48,285 nt of DNA. It comes from Candidatus Poribacteria bacterium. Its GTDB lineage: Bacteria > Poribacteria > WGA-4E > WGA-3G. Shown here in pieces: positions 28,595-48,161 of the stretch. The stretch is taken from assembly GCA_022825665.1 (NCBI GenBank), contig JAJDWI010000092.1:1-48285 (forward strand). Reading direction: 5' to 3'. Within the stretch, counting starts at the first letter, position 1; each line of letters starts with the position of its first letter. The notes below the pieces were generated by a model. It saw only the letters and a program-made list of their open reading frames with translations. It was not told the DNA's origin and made no database searches. Position numbers and translations under genes: made by a program.

Positions 28595-29953
28595 ATGAAC
28601 ATCATTCACATTATATCAGATACATTCAGACGAGATAATTTAGAAATATTTGGCGGAAAAGGCTATAGTCCTGCACTTAATGCTTTTGCTGAGAAATGCG
28701 TTGTTTTTAACAAAGCCTATGTCTGTAGTTTTCCTACAGTGCCTATTCGCGGTGATCTGGTGACAGGTGAGGTAGGTATATGTCGTCGGGGTTGGGAACC
28801 GCTAAAAGGAAACGTACCTGTCATTGCAAATGCACTAACAAAAGCCGGTGTTATTAGCATGATGATTGCTGATACACCTCACCATCTCAACAACGGATTT
28901 CTGTATAACAGAGGTTTTACAGGCTGGAAATGGATTCGTGGACAGGAAACCGATATATTAGAAACACAACCTTATGACTATGATTCTGATATAACATCAC
29001 GGTATCGTGAACACACGCGACCTCACCCAAACAAGTTGCCACCGGGGCTCGCTAACCATCTCAGAAATGCAGACTTCAGAAGGAATGAGGGGGATACCTT
29101 CGTAGCACAAACTATGCAAACTGCCTGCGACTGGTTGGAACGGAATTATAAACACGAAAACTTCTATCTTATGGTAGATACCTTTGACCCACATGAACCG
29201 TGGGATGTACCGGACTGGTATATTAGACGATTTGATTCTGAGGATTACGATGGTCCTGAACCAATATACCCGACATACGGTCCAAACAAAATGGATGAAC
29301 GCACAACACAAAGACTCAATGCATTATATCGTGCTGAAGCGAGTCTGGTGGATAATTGGATTGGACATTTGTTGAACAAAATTGACTATATGGGGTTGAT
29401 GGATAGTACAATGATTATCTTCATGGCAGATCACGGTTTCCTGTTGGGTGAACACGGACTAATCGCAAAAAATCTCAGTATGTATGAGGAAGTAGTGCAT
29501 ATACCACTCCTTGTGTACCATCCTGATGCAACACCGCGTCAGACTGATGCGCTCGCAAGTATTATTGACTTACCGGCAACTGTTGTTGACTATTTTGGTG
29601 CAGAGCGCGGAAATCAGGTTGAAGGTCATAGTCTATTACCGATAATCATGGGTGATACAGATAAAGGAAGAGATTATGCCATTACACACGGCGCGTGGGG
29701 TGGTGGATGGAGTCCTGACGGAGGTAGTCCTCACGGGAGTGTTACGGATGGCACTTGGTCATTACTATTAGAAAATCAAGGTGCTCCGAAAAGCTTATTC
29801 CATCTACCATCGGATCCGGACCAGATGAAGAATCGGTTCGAGACAGATACCGATGAGGCACGTCGTCTATATCAAGCATTTTTGGAGTTTTTGGGACAAC
29901 ACGGTGGTCCAGATGCAATGGTTGAACAATTTCAAAGTCGGTGGACTCGTTGA
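28595..29953 (+). CDS. Sulfatase-fold (alkaline phosphatase superfamily) hydrolase with Thr at the nucleophile position
   Basis: 452 residues from ATG 28595 (AGAGGAA upstream); an in-frame ATG at 28580 adds five residues. Metal site ISDTFRRDNL with Asp9, and late MADHGFLLGEHGLIAK with Asp, His and Lys, fit sulfatases. The signature normally C/S-x-P-x-R-x4-T-G reads TVPIRGDLVTG, placing Thr48 where a formylglycine precursor should be. It therefore cannot be a standard formylglycine sulfatase; a phosphodiesterase-type Thr nucleophile or a non-catalytic role are options. No signal peptide. The aquaporin gene follows after 16 bases. Confidence 0.85.
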   Translation: MNIIHIISDTFRRDNLEIFGGKGYSPALNAFAEKCVVFNKAYVCSFPTVPIRGDLVTGEVGICRRGWEPLKGNVPVIANALTKAGVISMMIADTPHHLNNGFLYNRGFTGWKWIRGQETDILETQPYDYDSDITSRYREHTRPHPNKLPPGLANHLRNADFRRNEGDTFVAQTMQTACDWLERNYKHENFYLMVDTFDPHEPWDVPDWYIRRFDSEDYDGPEPIYPTYGPNKMDERTTQRLNALYRAEASLVDNWIGHLLNKIDYMGLMDSTMIIFMADHGFLLGEHGLIAKNLSMYEEVVHIPLLVYHPDATPRQTDALASIIDLPATVVDYFGAERGNQVEGHSLLPIIMGDTDKGRDYAITHGAWGGGWSPDGGSPHGSVTDGTWSLLLENQGAPKSLFHLPSDPDQMKNRFETDTDEARRLYQAFLEFLGQHGGPDAMVEQFQSRWTR

Positions 29954-29969
29954 GTTAAATATTGGCTAT

Positions 29970-30644
29970 ATGAATTTACGGAATTTAGTTGCAGAGTTTA
30001 TCGGTACATTTACCCTTATCTTTATTGGTGCAGGTGCGTTGGCAATAAATGTTGGCGGTCTTTTAGAGGTTGCACTTGCCCACGGCTTTGTAGTGGTTGG
30101 TTTTATTTATGCTTATGGACATATTTCCGGTTCGCATATCAATCCTGCTGTAACACTTGGACTTTTGGTTGCTCAAGAAATCCAATTGACTGCTGCCATC
30201 GGTTATTGGCTTGTTCAGTTCGCAGGAGGAATTGCCGGTGCGTTCCTACTCAAAGTAATCCTACCGATGGAAACTGATCTTGGTGTGACGGTTTTAACAA
30301 CCGTGGAAACAGGTGGGGCATTTACAGTTACACCAATAATGGGTATGTTTGTTGAAATTATACTTACATTCTTACTTGTCAATATGATTTTCAATACTGC
30401 AGTCAGTGGCAAAGCGGGGAACTTTGCAGGATTAGCAATTGGATTAACTCTAATATTTCTAATCCTAATGGGTGGACCATTGACACGTGCGTCTCTCAAT
30501 CCAGCACGGACGTTAGGACCTGCAGTCGCATCGGGGAATTATTCTGATTTATGGCTCTATATTGTCGGTCCGTGTGGTGGTGGTGTGCTTGCTGCACTTG
30601 TTTATATCGGTGTATTTAAAGATAATAGTTCTGGAACTGAGTAG
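29970..30644 (+). CDS. MIP-family channel (aquaporin type)
   Basis: 224 residues, six hydrophobic helices with both half-helix motifs: SGSHINPAVTLG near residue 55 and RASLNPARTLGPAV near residue 175. The residue after the second NPAR is Thr, not the Asp typical of glycerol facilitators, favouring a water-type aquaporin. The ATG at 29970 begins a normal MIP N-terminus (MNLRNLVAEFIGTF); an extension upstream overlaps the sulfatase-like gene and is not family-like. Confidence 0.92.
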   Translation: MNLRNLVAEFIGTFTLIFIGAGALAINVGGLLEVALAHGFVVVGFIYAYGHISGSHINPAVTLGLLVAQEIQLTAAIGYWLVQFAGGIAGAFLLKVILPMETDLGVTVLTTVETGGAFTVTPIMGMFVEIILTFLLVNMIFNTAVSGKAGNFAGLAIGLTLIFLILMGGPLTRASLNPARTLGPAVASGNYSDLWLYIVGPCGGGVLAALVYIGVFKDNSSGTE

Positions 30645-30737: not shown

Positions 30738-31358
30738 TTATGATTCAACGTTGATCGGGATTTCTGTAGGTTTAGCATCCTCAGATTTAGGAATCACAAT
30801 TGACAACACACCATCCTTAAATTCTGCTTTTATACCATCAGCATTAGCATGCGGTGGTAATGGAAGCATGCGTCTGAACTTTCCGTATCTAAGTTCTGAT
30901 CTACGAAACTTATGATTTTCATCAGTTTGTTTCCGTTCTTTTTCACCTTTTACTTTCAAAAGCCTATCGGTTACAGAGATATTGATACTGTCTTGGGATA
31001 CTCCAGGTAGTTCAAACAATACCTCAAACTTATCTTCCAGAACAGTCAACTCAATAGGTGGATTCCAAACCGATTTCCCTTTTCCTCCTCTTCCCCTTCG
31101 GGAATCAAATCTTCTATTGAAAAATGGATGACGGGATCTAAATCCTGCTTGTGCCGGTCGTTGTCGATTTCTCCTCCGTCTTGGGGAATGATCATTGTCC
31201 GATCCTCTTTCAAATGGACGGTTCCGTCTATTTCCTCTTGCTTGTGCGCGTGGTCCTTGTCTCCTGCCTTCAGTAGGTCTGTTAGGTCTTCTTCCTCTAC
31301 CTTCTCGCGGACGATGCCCTCTTGGACCTCTGGGACCTTGTTGCGGTGAATTTCTCAT
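30738..31358 (-). CDS. Small heat-shock protein (Hsp20) with long Arg/Gly/Pro-rich N-terminus
   Basis: 206 residues. Residues 1-95 contain 30 arginines plus many Gly, Pro, Gln and Asn, including RGPRGHRPREGRGRRPNRP-type stretches and an RRRRNRQR block, and look disordered and nucleic-acid-binding. Residues ~98-206 are a normal alpha-crystallin domain (ELTVLEDKFEVLFELPGVSQDSINISV, GEKERKQ, FRRMLPLPPHA, KAEFKDGVLSIVIPK). Hsp20 proteins hold unfolding clients; this tail suggests RNA or DNA partners, which is inference. AAGGAGAATTG precedes the start. Third gene of the hsp20 cluster, behind a terminator. Confidence 0.9.
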   Translation of the reverse strand: MRNSPQQGPRGPRGHRPREGRGRRPNRPTEGRRQGPRAQARGNRRNRPFERGSDNDHSPRRRRNRQRPAQAGFRSRHPFFNRRFDSRRGRGGKGKSVWNPPIELTVLEDKFEVLFELPGVSQDSINISVTDRLLKVKGEKERKQTDENHKFRRSELRYGKFRRMLPLPPHANADGIKAEFKDGVLSIVIPKSEDAKPTEIPINVES

Positions 31359-31449
31359 TTCAATTCTCCTTGTTATTTATAAATAATTGTTTTATTCTTC
31401 GCTTCTTTAGACAACTATCCTAATGAAATGTTCGTGATTAGGATTAAAA

Positions 31450-31492
31450 CAACAATGGGGTTGGCACAATTGACATGCCAACCCCATTGTTG
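31450..31492 (-). terminator. Strong terminator after the middle hsp20 gene
   Basis: AACAATGGGGTTGGCA (31451-31466) and TGCCAACCCCATTGTT (31476-31491) form a perfect 16-bp stem (17 with the flanking C-G) and a 9-base loop; on the minus strand it is followed by GTTTTAAT. It should separate the Arg-rich hsp20 gene from the two upstream ones. A second small hairpin (ATCCTAAT/ATTAGGAT, 31417-31444) follows. Confidence 0.85.
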
Positions 31493-31504
31493 AATATATA
31501 ATGT

Positions 31505-31960
31505 TTAGTTTTCCTGTGTCCCACTTACTTCTGCCTGAACGGTGATTGGTATCTCTTTCGGTTTTACCTCTTCAGCTTTTGGGATAGACAGGGATAAAAC
31601 ACCATCGGTGAATTCGGCTTTGATGCTGTCTGTATCAACTTTCGGAGGAAGCGAAAACCTACGCTCGAAACTACCATAACGTCTTTCTACCCGTTTGTAG
31701 TTATTAGAATCGTCAACATTTTCCTGACGTTTTTCACCTTTGATTGTTAAATAGTCATCTTTGACAGAAATGTGGACATCTTCCGATGGTATACCGGGCA
31801 GTTCTGCACGCACCTCATAACTGTTATCCGTTTCAGAAATATCTGTTGAGGGTGTCCATGTATAGTTCTCCCTCACAGGAACTGTCTGTCGTCCAGCAAA
31901 TGGAACATTGAAAAACCTAAACGGGTTTACTACGGGTCTACGTAAAGTCAAATAAGTCAT
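31505..31960 (-). CDS. Small heat-shock protein (Hsp20/alpha-crystallin)
   Basis: 151 residues, normal Hsp20 size. Starts MTYLTLRRPVVNPF, then an alpha-crystallin domain: WTPSTDISETDNSYEVRAELPGI, DVHISVKDDYLTIKGEKR, ERRYGSFERRFSLPP, IKAEFTDGVLSLSIPKAEE. The C-terminal IPITVQ matches the I-x-I tail used in oligomer assembly. GAAGGAGAAG lies before the ATG. Probably cotranscribed with the upstream hsp20 gene at 32076 and ended by the strong terminator just downstream. Confidence 0.95.
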   Translation of the reverse strand: MTYLTLRRPVVNPFRFFNVPFAGRQTVPVRENYTWTPSTDISETDNSYEVRAELPGIPSEDVHISVKDDYLTIKGEKRQENVDDSNNYKRVERRYGSFERRFSLPPKVDTDSIKAEFTDGVLSLSIPKAEEVKPKEIPITVQAEVSGTQEN

Positions 31961-32075: not shown

Positions 32076-32525
32076 TTAAGAGTTTACCGAGATTTGAATT
32101 TCTTTCGGTTTTGCTTCTTCAGCTTTTGGGATTATTAGGCTTAAAATACCATCCTTAAATCCTGCTTTGATGTCAGAGGTATTCACAAGACGTGGTAACG
32201 TGAAACTTCTTTGGAAAGTACCATATCGTCTTTCTACACGATGAAAGTTTTTGTCCTCAGTTTTCTCTTCAACATGTTTTTCACCTTTGATAGTCAGTAA
32301 GTTATCGGTTACTGATATGTTGACATCGCTTTCTGAAACACCAGGAAGTTCTGCTTGGATTTCATAACTATTTTCCGTTTCGGCAATGTCAACCGTTGGT
32401 GTCCAAGAAGTAGTTTCAGTATTCACATCACTGTCTTGAGAGGAAAGAAGATCACCGAAAAGCCTTCCCATCTCATTATGAAGGTTGAAAAGATTTCCTA
32501 TTGGTTTGCGTGTTAAATATGTCAT
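32076..32525 (-). CDS. Small heat-shock protein (Hsp20/alpha-crystallin)
   Basis: 149 residues. N-terminal arm MTYLTRKPIGNLFNLHNEMGRLFGDLL, then WTPTVDIAETENSYEIQAELPGVSESDVNISV, LLTIKGEKH, ERRYGTFQRSFTLP, IKAGFKDGVLSL-like IKAGFKDGILSLIIPKAEE, and the I-x-I tail IQISV. Closely related to the gene at 31505, indicating duplication. AAAGGAGAAG precedes the ATG. First gene of the cluster, directly downstream of two sigma-54-type promoter matches. Confidence 0.95.
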   Translation of the reverse strand: MTYLTRKPIGNLFNLHNEMGRLFGDLLSSQDSDVNTETTSWTPTVDIAETENSYEIQAELPGVSESDVNISVTDNLLTIKGEKHVEEKTEDKNFHRVERRYGTFQRSFTLPRLVNTSDIKAGFKDGILSLIIPKAEEAKPKEIQISVNS

Positions 32526-33765: not shown

Positions 33766-35613
33766 ATGTTTTGGGAGACAATTGAATCACAATTCAAAGT
33801 CGCAGCTGCACACCAATTTCTGTTACATTTTAATGTCGGAGACTTGCAGCATGATGAAAATTTTGGTTATATGCCAACTCTGGATTATTTGATGGAACAA
33901 TTAAATGTACTTGGGTGTCGATTGGTTATCGGATATAATGCCACCCAAGGATTTAAATGGCCAAGAGTCGGGGAATGGATAAGTACACAGAAAATATTAG
34001 GACTTATACCTAAAGAACAGGGACCACCAGCGGAAACTGAAGATAGAAAAAGAATCAACAGTCAACTATTACTCAATAAACTGCATGAAGATCCATTTTA
34101 CAGAAGTGATCCGTTGCCGACAAAGGACTTGGCAAACAAGATGCATGATCTCTTGAAGCAAGACAGAGTCAGAGTCGGTATGGTTATTGATAGCCTTGAA
34201 CAGATTGCACCGAATGATCCTATGTTTGAGGCAGGTGCGCATGACAACCAACAATACTTCTTCTACCAACTCAAGAATTGGGCGTCAGATCTGGAAATTC
34301 GAAGAAAAAAGCATATTATCTTACTTCTCACACAAAATACTTACGATATCCATCCACAGTTTCTTGTGAATCAGGAAATACCTATCGTAGAAGTTCCATT
34401 TCCGGCTTATGATGAACGGTTGAAATTTATTGAGCACTTAAACAAAATTCCACAAGAAATAACACATCAGGATTCGCCGGATCAGAAAGTTCAAGTTCAA
34501 CTGAATCTTGGGAATGCGGGTGAAAGACAAAACTTAGCTCGTGAAACTGCGGGTTTAAATCTATTTGGAATACATGATTTAGTCAGACATGCTGCGTCTT
34601 TAAAGCAGAAAGTGGAGGGACCATTACTTGGGAACTATCGACGTCAAAGTATCAAGGTATTCAGTCATGGAATTATTGAAATTAATGAACCACTTACCAA
34701 TCCAAGACAGCACTGGTCAAGTCATGTTACAAGGGTCATAGAGGATGTTGCTGAAGGGTTAAAAGAAAATGATATGCGACGTGTTCCGCGAGGTATCCTA
34801 ATGCTTGGACCAACTGGTAACGGAAATATATTTGCTGCGCGTATGTTGGCTGGACAGACAAATATGGCATTTGTGCAACTTCGATATGCAAGTCAGGTCA
34901 GCGAAGTAACGATCAACCTTAATGATAGCGGTTCTGGTTACGAAAGAAACCTGAATTCTGCTATTAATTTTATCCGTGGACTTGCCCCGGTAGTTGTATT
35001 TATGGATGAAGTTGAACGTGCCTCACCGCATACTGGGATGCAGCAGGGAGGGGATCACGGTTTTCCTGTACTCTTGACAAATGCTATTAGTGATGCGTCC
35101 TTACATGGTCAGGTGATATGGGTTGGTACATCCAGTCGTCCCGATTTAATGCCACCGATATTCAGACGTCCAGAGATATTTGGTCATAAATTAGTGCTTT
35201 TACCTCCTATGCGGGAAAGTCGGGCAGGTATATTACAGTTCTTTTGCCGATTCCACACACAAGAACAGATAAACTTTCAAGAGATTGCAAGAGACCAGAA
35301 GCTACGTGGTGTGAGTGTTGGTGATCTTATGCAGATAGCACAACGAAGCCATAACATTGCTAAACGCAAGAATAGAAATGCCTTTGTTGAAGAAGATTTG
35401 CGTGAGGCAGTAGCAGATTATATGCCAGATCATTCTGCTGAAATGCAGATGTTTATGTCTTTGTTAGCATTGCAAGAGGCGAATTCTCGTCAAATGATAC
35501 CTGACAGACTTCCACGTCCATACGTGGAATTCGTTGCTGATAACCGAATTGACAAAACAAAGATTAACAACCGGTTGATGGAGTTGAGTAAGGAACTTGG
35601 GTTGAGTGCTTGA
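33766..35613 (+). CDS. AAA-type ATPase-like protein with degenerate Walker A
   Basis: 615 residues. The C-terminal AAA module (about 330-540) has PRGILMLGPTGNGNIFAARML, where the Walker-A Lys is Asn354 and the following Ser/Thr is Ile, then Walker B PVVVFMDEVERA, a sensor-like VIWVGTSSRPDLMPP and RRPEIF in the arginine-finger region. The N-terminal half contains another Walker-B-like VGMVIDSLEQIAP and a sensor-like IILLLTQNT, suggesting a second, degenerate AAA fold, a layout reminiscent of Ycf46-type proteins. Nucleotide binding is doubtful without the Lys. No known pathway. Nothing else shares its strand nearby except the small ORF. Confidence 0.75.
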   Translation: MFWETIESQFKVAAAHQFLLHFNVGDLQHDENFGYMPTLDYLMEQLNVLGCRLVIGYNATQGFKWPRVGEWISTQKILGLIPKEQGPPAETEDRKRINSQLLLNKLHEDPFYRSDPLPTKDLANKMHDLLKQDRVRVGMVIDSLEQIAPNDPMFEAGAHDNQQYFFYQLKNWASDLEIRRKKHIILLLTQNTYDIHPQFLVNQEIPIVEVPFPAYDERLKFIEHLNKIPQEITHQDSPDQKVQVQLNLGNAGERQNLARETAGLNLFGIHDLVRHAASLKQKVEGPLLGNYRRQSIKVFSHGIIEINEPLTNPRQHWSSHVTRVIEDVAEGLKENDMRRVPRGILMLGPTGNGNIFAARMLAGQTNMAFVQLRYASQVSEVTINLNDSGSGYERNLNSAINFIRGLAPVVVFMDEVERASPHTGMQQGGDHGFPVLLTNAISDASLHGQVIWVGTSSRPDLMPPIFRRPEIFGHKLVLLPPMRESRAGILQFFCRFHTQEQINFQEIARDQKLRGVSVGDLMQIAQRSHNIAKRKNRNAFVEEDLREAVADYMPDHSAEMQMFMSLLALQEANSRQMIPDRLPRPYVEFVADNRIDKTKINNRLMELSKELGLSA

Positions 35614-35792: not shown

Positions 35793-36086
35793 TTACTCTT
35801 CTTCGTAGCGGCTTTGGCTTTGGTATCGGGGTTCAGAGCGACGTTCGCGTGGACGTGCGGGATTGACCTTCAAGGGGCGTCCCATCAACTCTTGACCGTC
35901 AAGAGCTTCAATAGCGCGTTCACCGTCTTCTTGGTTTTCCATCTCAACAAACCCATACCCTTTTGAGCGACCATCGTAGCGGTCACGAATAATCGTTACC
36001 GATGTCAGTGGTCCATGCGGCTCAAATATTTCTTCCAAGTCAGTTTCTGTGGCTGCATAGGGCACATTGCCAACGTAGATGTTCAT
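35793..36086 (-). CDS. RNA-binding protein with a single RRM domain
   Basis: 97 residues. RNP2 appears as IYVGNV at the start and RNP1 as KGYGFVEM near residue 43; GRPLKVNPARPRERR closes the RRM and a short Arg/Gln/Glu tail follows. This is the common bacterial/cyanobacterial-type glycine-poor RRM protein, often cold- or stress-induced; that role is not shown here. AAAGGAGAAACGAG precedes the ATG. Stands alone between two convergent/following genes. Confidence 0.95.
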   Translation of the reverse strand: MNIYVGNVPYAATETDLEEIFEPHGPLTSVTIIRDRYDGRSKGYGFVEMENQEDGERAIEALDGQELMGRPLKVNPARPRERRSEPRYQSQSRYEEE

Positions 36087-45764: not shown

Positions 45765-47420
45765 TTACCTCTTTTCCTTTATAATAAGATGTTGATTCAC
45801 CAATATATCATTGATACTTTCAATATCTCCACATGTCCATCGGACTATCACTTTATCAACTTTCGTGACATCTGACAAACCGAAATGTAGACGCATATCG
45901 TTTTGGCTAAGGTATCCGGATCCGCTCTTGACTTCTCGGATCTGTTTCGAATTTCCTATGATAACAGTAACCCGCGCTCCTATTGCATCGTGGTTACAAT
46001 GATTTCCAATCAATTTCACGCTAAGCCAATTATTGGAATTTCCTTCAACATTTCGTAGAACAGTGGGAGATGCTTTCAGATTAGTTACAACAATGTCTAT
46101 ATCCCCATCGTTGTCAATATCACCAAATGCAGCACCACGACTAACTTTATGTGTACCTCCAACTTCAGCAAGTTCAAATTTAGATTCCTGTTTATTCCAA
46201 AATATATGATTTGGTTGTTCATATTTGCCGACTGGATCTATCTCCGCAATGTTATTGTCTAAATGTCCGTTACATACGAACAGATCAAGTAAACCATCGT
46301 TGTTAAAATCAGCAAAATCTACACCCCACGCCAAGTACGGTAAACTCTTTTCCCCAATACCTGTGACATAACTTACATCGTTGAAGAACCCATTTTGCGC
46401 GTTGTTGTAAATGCTATTAACTTGATCTTGGAAATTGGTAATTACAATATCCAGAAATCCGTCATTATCATAATCCCCGAGGTTTGCACCCATACTGCTA
46501 AATGCACGTCCATCTTCACTTAGTGCAACACCTGCAAAGAGCGCGTCTTCTGTGAATGTTCCGTTTCCGTTGTTAAGGTAGAGAAAATTCGGTGTTGTAT
46601 CGTTTGCTACAAAAACATCAACATCCCCATCGTTGTCAACATCCCCACAAACAACTCCAAGTCCTTTTCCTGCGGGGGCAGTTATCCCTGCGATCTCTGT
46701 CACATCGGTGAATGTTCCGTCTCCATTGTTACGATAAAGAATATCTGCTTCAGCAACAAGTGCTTCAGGGGTGCAATAGGTTGGAACTCCTTTTCGGGAG
46801 CATACTGGATTTTCATTTGTATCGAATTTGACATAGTTGACAACAAAAAGATCTAAGTGACCATCAGCATTATAATCTAAAAAAGCACAACCACTACTGA
46901 GTTGATTTCCTCCAACACCCATCTGGTCGGTTTCATCTGAAAATGTTCCGTCTCCATTGTTTTTGTATAGAACATTTTGACCATAATTAGTAACATAGAG
47001 GTCTTTATATCCATCGTTATTATAGTCACCTACACAGCAACCTAAGCCGTATCCAGTGTCTCCTATAGATGCCATATCTGTAACATCAACATAAACGCCA
47101 TTGTCATTGCGATATAGTATATTCTTTGGAGAGATGTCAGATTTCTTTCCGGGTAAATTGCTGCCATTGACGAAATAAAGATCCAAATCATCATCGTTGT
47201 CATAATCAAAGAGAGCAAGACCTCTACCCAATGGTTCGATGAAGTACTTCTTCCCACTTTCCCCATTTTCATCAAGAAATCGGATACCTACTTCTTTAGT
47301 TACATCAATGAACCGTACATTTTCATTTAAGATTTGTTGCTGAGTTTGACTTAGCTCAACATTAGTCACTAATAGTAGCACAGATATTATTATGATTGTT
47401 TTTATATTAAAAGTACACAT
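45765..47420 (-). CDS. CRTAC1-like secreted protein with FG-GAP/VCBS repeats and ASPIC/UnbV domain
   Basis: 551 residues. A signal peptide (about 1-25) is followed by VGIRFLDENGESGKKYFIEPLGRGLALFDYDNDDDLDLYFVNG, the typical start of CRTAC1-like proteins. Six or seven beta-propeller repeats each carry a calcium-loop motif of the DxDxDGxxD kind (DYNNDGYKDLYV, DYNADGHLDLFV, DVDNDGDVDVFV, DYDNDGFLDIVI, DFNNDGLLDLFV, DIDNDGDIDIVV). The C-terminal ASPIC/UnbV domain includes GARVTVIIGNSKQIREVKSGSGYLSQND. Likely an extracellular adhesion-type propeller. No clear ribosome site at the 47420 ATG. Confidence 0.92.
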   Translation of the reverse strand: MCTFNIKTIIIISVLLLVTNVELSQTQQQILNENVRFIDVTKEVGIRFLDENGESGKKYFIEPLGRGLALFDYDNDDDLDLYFVNGSNLPGKKSDISPKNILYRNDNGVYVDVTDMASIGDTGYGLGCCVGDYNNDGYKDLYVTNYGQNVLYKNNGDGTFSDETDQMGVGGNQLSSGCAFLDYNADGHLDLFVVNYVKFDTNENPVCSRKGVPTYCTPEALVAEADILYRNNGDGTFTDVTEIAGITAPAGKGLGVVCGDVDNDGDVDVFVANDTTPNFLYLNNGNGTFTEDALFAGVALSEDGRAFSSMGANLGDYDNDGFLDIVITNFQDQVNSIYNNAQNGFFNDVSYVTGIGEKSLPYLAWGVDFADFNNDGLLDLFVCNGHLDNNIAEIDPVGKYEQPNHIFWNKQESKFELAEVGGTHKVSRGAAFGDIDNDGDIDIVVTNLKASPTVLRNVEGNSNNWLSVKLIGNHCNHDAIGARVTVIIGNSKQIREVKSGSGYLSQNDMRLHFGLSDVTKVDKVIVRWTCGDIESINDILVNQHLIIKEKR

Positions 47421-48161
47421 TAGAGAAATACAAAACCGAATGTTGAAAATAGAAATTATGATAATTTATACAAATGATGTGAAACAAATTATACACGGTA
47501 TGTGATTTTGTAATTTGACCAACAGAAAAATTAAATTGTTCGGATAAAGAAAATTGTTGAAATTCGCTAAAAATATTAATGCTCACGTTGGCGTATAACG
47601 CATTTTTTTACTGTTTCCGATATAATATACCTATAAAATCCGTTTGGGGCAAATTGACTGTCTATATCTGTCTATTTAATGATTTAGTTTCCTTGATCAA
47701 GCAATCTGTACGTAGTTTCATACCACTTCCGAAGTTAATTGGCATTTGCTATCATATAGATGGTTATTGTGTCTAAACTTGATTGTGCAAATGCATTACG
47801 AATAAATCTGATGGATTTATTGTAACACGCAGTGTTGACCACGTCAACGGATTAATGTTCGTTCTTGTGCAATTCAGTTTGAGATTTGCTATTACCATAA
47901 TTTGGATAAAAGTTAATACTTACTTTGTTTGAGTTATAGACACTAACAAAAATTAGAGTAATACCTTAAATCCGCGCTGTACACCTGCTAAAAGATGTTA
48001 ACAGCCTATTACATACCTCATAATTCTATAGTGTTGTATAAGCACGATTATACAACACTATTAATTTATCCCGTAATTGTGCGTATTTAAATTAATTTTT
48101 ACATTTGTTAAACACCTTGGATTGTCTGTAATAGAAATATAGAAATCAGGGTTATTTAGTT
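47421..48161. other. Gene-free AT-rich region
   Basis: No gene with coding character. A small palindrome GTTGAC-CAC-GTCAAC (47834-47848) could be an operator-like site, with no gene to assign it to. The orphan hairpin at 48028-48061 is listed separately. The left end of an insertion sequence may lie near 48100, beyond the transposase stop, but I cannot identify its inverted repeat. Confidence 0.5.
48028..48061. repeat. Orphan 14-bp hairpin
   Basis: ATAGTGTTGTATAA (48028-48041) / TTATACAACACTAT (48048-48061), perfect 14-bp stem with a 6-base loop. Only a weak T-rich tail follows on either strand. It is about 100 bases beyond the stop of the partial transposase gene, so it may be a terminator for that strand or part of the element's end. 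Confidence 0.65.

Follow-up and report, generated by a model that had tools for sequence, protein, structure and literature searches.

The window analyzed here, a stretch of 48,285 nucleotides from Candidatus Poribacteria (contig JAJDWI010000092.1), encodes an unusual Hsp20 variant that is both real and conserved, in which a long arginine-rich arm precedes an alpha-crystallin domain (ACD). Our sequence comparisons indicate that this armed protein is a third Hsp20 paralogue of single origin, confined, as far as we searched, to one genus of these uncultured Poribacteria. It is defined at the sequence level by the arm and the constraint acting on it, a single clade, its place of insertion in the gene cluster, the retained ACD and C-terminal IXI anchor, and a promoter-like element of its own. 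The arms of small heat shock proteins (sHsps) are usually pictured as catching unfolded clients through hydrophobic residues; if our reading holds, a bacterial paralogue with a polycation in place of the hydrophobic arm would mean that arms can take on a targeting role, and would allow a test of the idea that RNP-directed chaperones evolved in bacteria independently of animals.

The armed gene and its product

The gene comprises the following features:

30738–31358, minus strand: armed Hsp20 gene, 206 aa (open reading frame and translation; Pfam HSP20, E = 1.4e-22)
31068–31358, minus strand: Arg-rich arm, residues 1–97, with 30 Arg and a net charge of +26 (composition, AlphaFold2 pLDDT, dN/dS)
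30741–31067, minus strand: ACD and C-terminal tail, residues 98–206 (Pfam, pLDDT, Foldseek)
30753–30761, minus strand: IXI anchor, I200-P-I202 (alignment)
31366–31371, minus strand: ribosome-binding site AAGGAG, 7 nt 5' of the ATG (sequence; conserved in the genus)

The coordinates given by the initial annotation are exact; the strand is minus, and a plus-strand reading of the same interval is interrupted by stops. Translation also bears out its count of 30 Arg among the first 95 residues and the ordinary ACD behind them, with Pfam HSP20 (PF00011) matching residues 107–203 at 80.1 bits against a cut-off of 20.8. AlphaFold2, supplied with 16 relatives, assigns a pLDDT of 84–89 to most of the ACD fold and of 40–47 to residues 1–90, predicting a disordered arm. 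Solved sHsps are matched by Foldseek (best E = 6e-9) essentially over the ACD part, and likewise by phmmer, in which a few alignments begin at residue 68–86. I200 and I202 are invariant in a 16-row alignment, the anchor being IPI in 14 of 15 proteins scanned and ISI in the other. The ACD and IXI anchor identify the armed protein as an Hsp20, or sHsp; under the NCBIfam equivalog models it is neither IbpA (15.1 of 212 bits) nor IbpB (19.4 of 207 bits).

We conclude that the arm is genuine coding sequence whose translation is well supported, because the gene has a good ribosome-binding site and no alternative start (the next Met falls within the ACD), the arm recurs in other genomes of the genus, and its dN/dS is below 1. 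An AGGAG-type site precedes the start in 16 of 16 genus members in the upstream alignment. Homologues that start at the ACD, which would have spoken against a translated arm, were not what the genus holds: 16 of its 18 genomes have the arm. The ribosome-binding site, the start, the constraint and the conservation across 16 genomes together rule out a frameshift or non-coding artefact. Neither Rfam nor tRNA scanning gave a match in the window.

Residues 1–95 contain, besides the 30 Arg, 14 Gly, 11 Pro, 7 Asn and 6 Gln. Against the 5.1% Arg of the other open reading frames in the window, this Arg content has a binomial P of about 3e-16, and the second-richest 95-residue stretch among the 29 frames kept has 14 Arg. 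The ratio R/(R+K) is 0.94 in this arm versus 0.51 in the background of the window, which has about 40% GC; across 15 arms of the genus it ranges from 0.73 to 0.97, and the Arg codons are mostly AGA. Two of the most divergent members are richer in Lys (0.73 and 0.80), so a strict preference for Arg is not universal. The pI is 12.0 for the arm and 11.6 for the whole protein, and the residues ILMFVWY make up 7% of this arm and 6–14% of the 15. The GPRGPRG stretch is specified by a short tandem repeat in the DNA, 2.3 copies of a 9-nt unit.

Pfam recognised no RNA- or DNA-binding domain in the arm, a search of the PDB with the arm alone gave no match at E up to 1, and the same query against its own genome found only itself, with no second copy. 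Inspection of the armed protein sequence showed no hydrophobic segment resembling a signal. Arg-rich tails were also sought on RNA helicases; in the eight of 12 DEAD matches inspected, none exceeded 9 Arg per 60 residues. The initial annotation called the N-terminus RGG-like. An RGG box is built of RGG motifs repeated at close spacing (di- or tri-RGG), and a motif count over 15 arms rejects that label: each arm has zero or one RGG, di-RGG, tri-RGG and tri-RG occur in 0 of 15, and di-RG occurs in 7.

For seven close genome pairs, the dN/dS of the arm is 0.37, 0.58, 0.40, 0.21, 0.56, 0.45 and 0.48, and that of the ACD is 0.09–0.25. The bootstrap 95% upper limit for the arm lies below 1 in four pairs, neutrality being still compatible with the other three, and constraint is weaker on the arm than on the ACD in six pairs, with G007/G013 the exception (arm lower). 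Since dN/dS is below 1 and Arg is kept over Lys, the composition of the arm, more than its exact sequence, appears to be selected, a pattern that would be expected of a functional disordered region.

Distribution and origin

Within the genus, the armed protein is encoded in 15 tabulated genomes and in G015. The tabulated arms are 77–131 residues long with 22–32% Arg (21–36 Arg) and a net charge of +18 to +31, and the sixteenth, from G015, has 28% Arg. There are many indels among them; sequence and length drift while the Arg share is held, and these natural arms form a ready series for separating the effects of composition and sequence. Of the two remaining genomes, G004 (81% complete) has no match to the armed protein at all, and G011 has the two ordinary paralogues only, the armed gene and the neighboring aquaporin gene being absent between paralogue A and a sulfatase gene; this gap (L058:5893-7706) is consistent with a single deletion of both.

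The search for other Hsp20s with Arg-rich arms that the initial annotation proposed succeeded inside the genus; outside it, the Hsp20s examined all have ordinary arms. Hsp20s from other genera of the family have arms of 35–43 residues with 5–17% Arg (23 genes). A profile search of 84 genomes gave no armed match, among the matches listed, in the 66 Poribacteria genomes of other genera; the deepest-reaching of the matches opened, apparent long arms in G053, G055, G056 and G057 with alignments extending to profile positions 6–36, proved to be open frames preceding ordinary arms of 44–45 residues. Full-length matches in the collection searched (6 of 10 loci) belong to Candidatus Poribacteria. Beyond the phylum, the armed profile was run against 199 genomes from the phylum of a Planctomycetaceae genome and the three behind L010–L012 (one of which is the Planctomycetaceae genome itself); among 52 Hsp20 frames at the best loci, with starts chosen by a ribosome-binding-site rule and one frame having no start in reach, no arm of at least 60 residues exceeded 8% Arg. 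None of the 1762 plasmid records that matched, and none of the 8 phage records, covered 80% of the query, although low-complexity masking may hide arms in both sets; of 39 stretches in viral contigs that fit the pattern, none encodes a relative. Together with the search of its own genome with the arm alone, these searches gave no sign of a horizontal or mobile origin. Our literature searches found nothing linking Hsp20 with Poribacteria, and those on Arg-rich or nucleic-acid-binding sHsps brought up no bacterial Arg-rich arm among the papers listed.

Three Hsp20 genes stand in tandem, the armed gene being the last of them, and its neighborhood includes:

31505–31960, minus strand: ordinary Hsp20 paralogue A, 151 aa, with a 35-aa hydrophobic arm
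32076–32525, minus strand: ordinary Hsp20 paralogue B, 149 aa, with a 40-aa arm
29853–30644, plus strand: convergent aquaporin-family gene (MIP; Pfam MIP, E = 1.6e-50)
35793–36086, minus strand: RRM-domain protein, 97 aa, with a short tail bearing Arg and Tyr

Both paralogues are acidic (A, pI 5.2 and net charge -4; B, pI 5.0 and net charge -7), and ILMFVWY make up 43% of the arm of A and 33% of that of B, in keeping with the earlier statement that bacterial Hsp20 arms are normally short and hydrophobic. Because the MIP gene as listed overlaps the sulfatase gene, its true start probably lies further downstream.

The ACDs of the 16 armed proteins form one clade (support 97/99; 98% of bootstrap trees) in a tree of 66 ACDs and 109 columns, which gives the clade and not its point of attachment. 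In the genus, the armed gene is flanked by paralogue A on one side and the convergent aquaporin gene on the other (L004, L006–L009), whereas in the three sister-genus genomes read (G034, G023, G024) a uridine kinase gene is followed by Hsp20 genes and then the aquaporin gene, without the armed gene. The single clade, the gene order of these sister-genus genomes and the position beside A fit a scenario in which an Hsp20 gene was duplicated locally and the copy then gained the arm. MIP adjoins the armed gene in L004, L006–L009, L057 and L059–L061, and the pair is preserved in genomes with a broken cluster (G008, G006, G009, G015); in G008 the two are found together at a different place. The arm is kept in G006, G012 and G015 without an A-type gene in the Hsp20 loci examined. 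In G015, the Hsp20 upstream of the armed gene (L057:7250-7588) lacks its N-terminal part, its 112-residue frame beginning inside the ACD, and is likely a pseudogene.

The RRM protein, whose gene lies at a distance of 4.4 kb from the armed one, is the sole RRM found in the whole genome. The cluster includes this gene in the window as well as in G014, G002, G017, G003, G001, G007, G009 and G011, and is absent from the stretches read in three sister-genus genomes, one g3 genome and G005. That G011 keeps this neighbor without the armed gene, and that none was seen in the stretch of G005, counts against a specific link between RRM and arm. Between the RRM and uridine kinase genes in the genus lies an ATPase gene (33766–35613, plus strand; 615 aa), in whose product only an AAA domain was recognised.

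The promoter-like element and a candidate sigma factor

Two further features separate the armed gene from paralogue A:

31410–31434, minus strand: candidate ECF-sigma-type promoter, CGAAC-N17-GTC (position and motif test)
31450–31492, minus strand: intrinsic terminator between paralogue A and the armed gene (17-nt perfect inverted repeat; 19 pairs and a T tail in the scan)

A single conserved island, GAAC-N17/18-GTC, lies 64–95 nt before the start of all 16 armed genes. The looser form GAAC-N15-19-GTC is likewise present in 16 of 16 armed upstream regions, which holds by construction, since the motif was discovered in them; the test lies in its presence in 0 of 46 upstream regions of unarmed Hsp20 genes (two of these fall short of 200 nt) and in 4.7% of shuffles. 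ECF-sigma promoters generally have a -35 element with AAC and a -10 element with GTC at a spacing of about 16–18 nt, and the candidate element has this form. It also resembles the promoter determined for RpoE1 of T. tengcongensis, reported as tGTTAC-N16-CGTC with GTC as a determinant (PMC3397946).

Single matches to the motif mean little, because the looser form also stands upstream of 3 of 31 window genes, the armed gene included. A genome-wide regulon was rejected: the stricter motif CGAACAW-N14-16-GTC is commoner in reversed controls than in forward scans (25 versus 39 in the control for G000, 26 versus 46 for G014). One exact match to the stricter motif lies at 47517–47542 (minus strand), upstream of a gene for a repeat protein (45765–47420), and is identical in the close relative G014.

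Another stricter-motif match precedes an ECF sigma gene (G000:C111:14572-15210; L119, L153), whose product has Pfam Sigma70 regions 2 and 4. All 18 genomes of the genus have this gene, and GAAC-N17/18-GTC occurs upstream of 15 of the 17 orthologues that could be read, being absent in G008 and G011; among 12 sigma paralogues at a greater distance, 3 have it upstream. Because the element precedes the sigma orthologues as well, an autoregulated ECF sigma factor that controls the armed gene is a good candidate, not proof; in G008 the armed gene has the element and the sigma gene lacks it. Directly downstream of GAAC-N17/18-GTC at the sigma gene is a second conserved element, GGAAC...TGTA.

Possible roles of the arm and comparison with known systems

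As a conserved polycation predicted to be disordered, the arm could, at a reasonable guess, bind some polyanion. The explanation that we tentatively prefer is a stress-induced sHsp whose polycationic arm steers the ACD to such a target, RNA or RNPs being the likeliest, by a logic like that of human HSPB8. An ECF-type sigma factor would switch the armed gene on under stress; the subunits would co-assemble, with each other or with acidic A and B, through ACD and IXI anchor, and so display many arms; and the arms would bind RNA or RNPs as the most likely polyanion and deliver the ACD to aggregation-prone proteins there, possibly condensing with RNA. RNA or RNPs are our first choice because of two precedents, HSPB8 and E. 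coli IbpA; the RRM gene nearby is a suggestive neighbor. A more specific version, which we consider doubtful, makes the armed protein an independent bacterial counterpart of HSPB8 under ECF-sigma control, whose arm carries the ACD into RNA/RNP condensates with the RRM protein as a candidate client.

It is also conceivable, if unlikely, that the arm coats DNA in the manner of a protamine and brings the chaperone to the nucleoid under stress. A high Arg content, accompanied by Gly, Pro, Asn and Gln, and a scarcity of acidic residues would suit that role, DNA and RNA are inseparable as polyanions from sequence alone, and the nucleoid proteins HU and Dps are described in a review as forming coacervates with DNA and RNA alike (PMC10534466); against this, no DNA-binding domain was recognised, and the sole nucleic-acid-binding neighbor kept beside the cluster has an RNA-type domain, the RRM.

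An arm that binds acidic membranes, or another polyanion such as polyphosphate, during envelope or osmotic stress would agree with the ECF-type element in all 16 armed genes and with the persistence of MIP beside them in broken clusters. We find this rather improbable, since the arms have very few hydrophobic residues and no signal-like stretch, and since MIP lies beside Hsp20 in the sister genus as well, where the arm is absent, so that the MIP-Hsp20 neighborhood is older than the arm. About equally improbable is a loosely constrained, low-complexity tail without a specific ligand, which would serve to keep oligomers small or soluble: the variable length, the many indels, a dN/dS mostly above that of the ACD and the tandem unit underlying GPRGPRG are what such a tail might produce, yet the Arg share is held, mostly with AGA codons, dN/dS is below 1 in seven of seven pairs, the gene persists in 16 of 18 genomes, and such a large share of a single residue is not what one would expect a neutral tail to retain. 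Least likely of all, a basic arm might hold acidic A and B in mixed oligomers and tune release, as the tandem genes and opposite pI values could suggest, but the armed gene differs from A and B in its promoter, a terminator lies in between, three genomes keep the arm without an A-type gene in the loci examined, and ACD pairing alone would suffice.

The preferred reading, delivery of the ACD to RNA or RNPs, draws its closest parallel from human HSPB8, which is reported to enter FUS condensates via Arg residues of a disordered region, such that changing 10 Arg to Gly abolishes entry (PMC8510580), and whose ACD is reported to protect an RRM within these condensates (Boczek et al. 2021, PMC8510580; reviewed in PMC13287201). 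Both proteins join an Arg-bearing disordered region to an ACD. The lineages differ, as do the numbers of Arg, 10 in the predicted disordered region of HSPB8 as described there and 21–36 in the Poribacteria arms; the likeness is one of architecture. E. coli IbpA is a bacterial sHsp reported to bind the 5' UTR of its own mRNA through a single ACD Arg (Cheng et al. 2023, PMC10474464), whereas the Arg residues of the armed Hsp20 sit in an added arm. Drosophila Hsp27 is cited as carrying an Arg-rich stretch (reference in PMC5433770), but there it is a eukaryotic nuclear-localisation signal and not a 100-residue arm. With ordinary bacterial Hsp20s (PF00011), such as paralogues A and B, the armed protein has in common the ACD fold, the C-terminal IXI anchor and the tandem gene arrangement; it differs in that its arm is Arg-rich, some two to four times as long and nearly devoid of hydrophobic residues, and in that its gene has its own promoter-like element.
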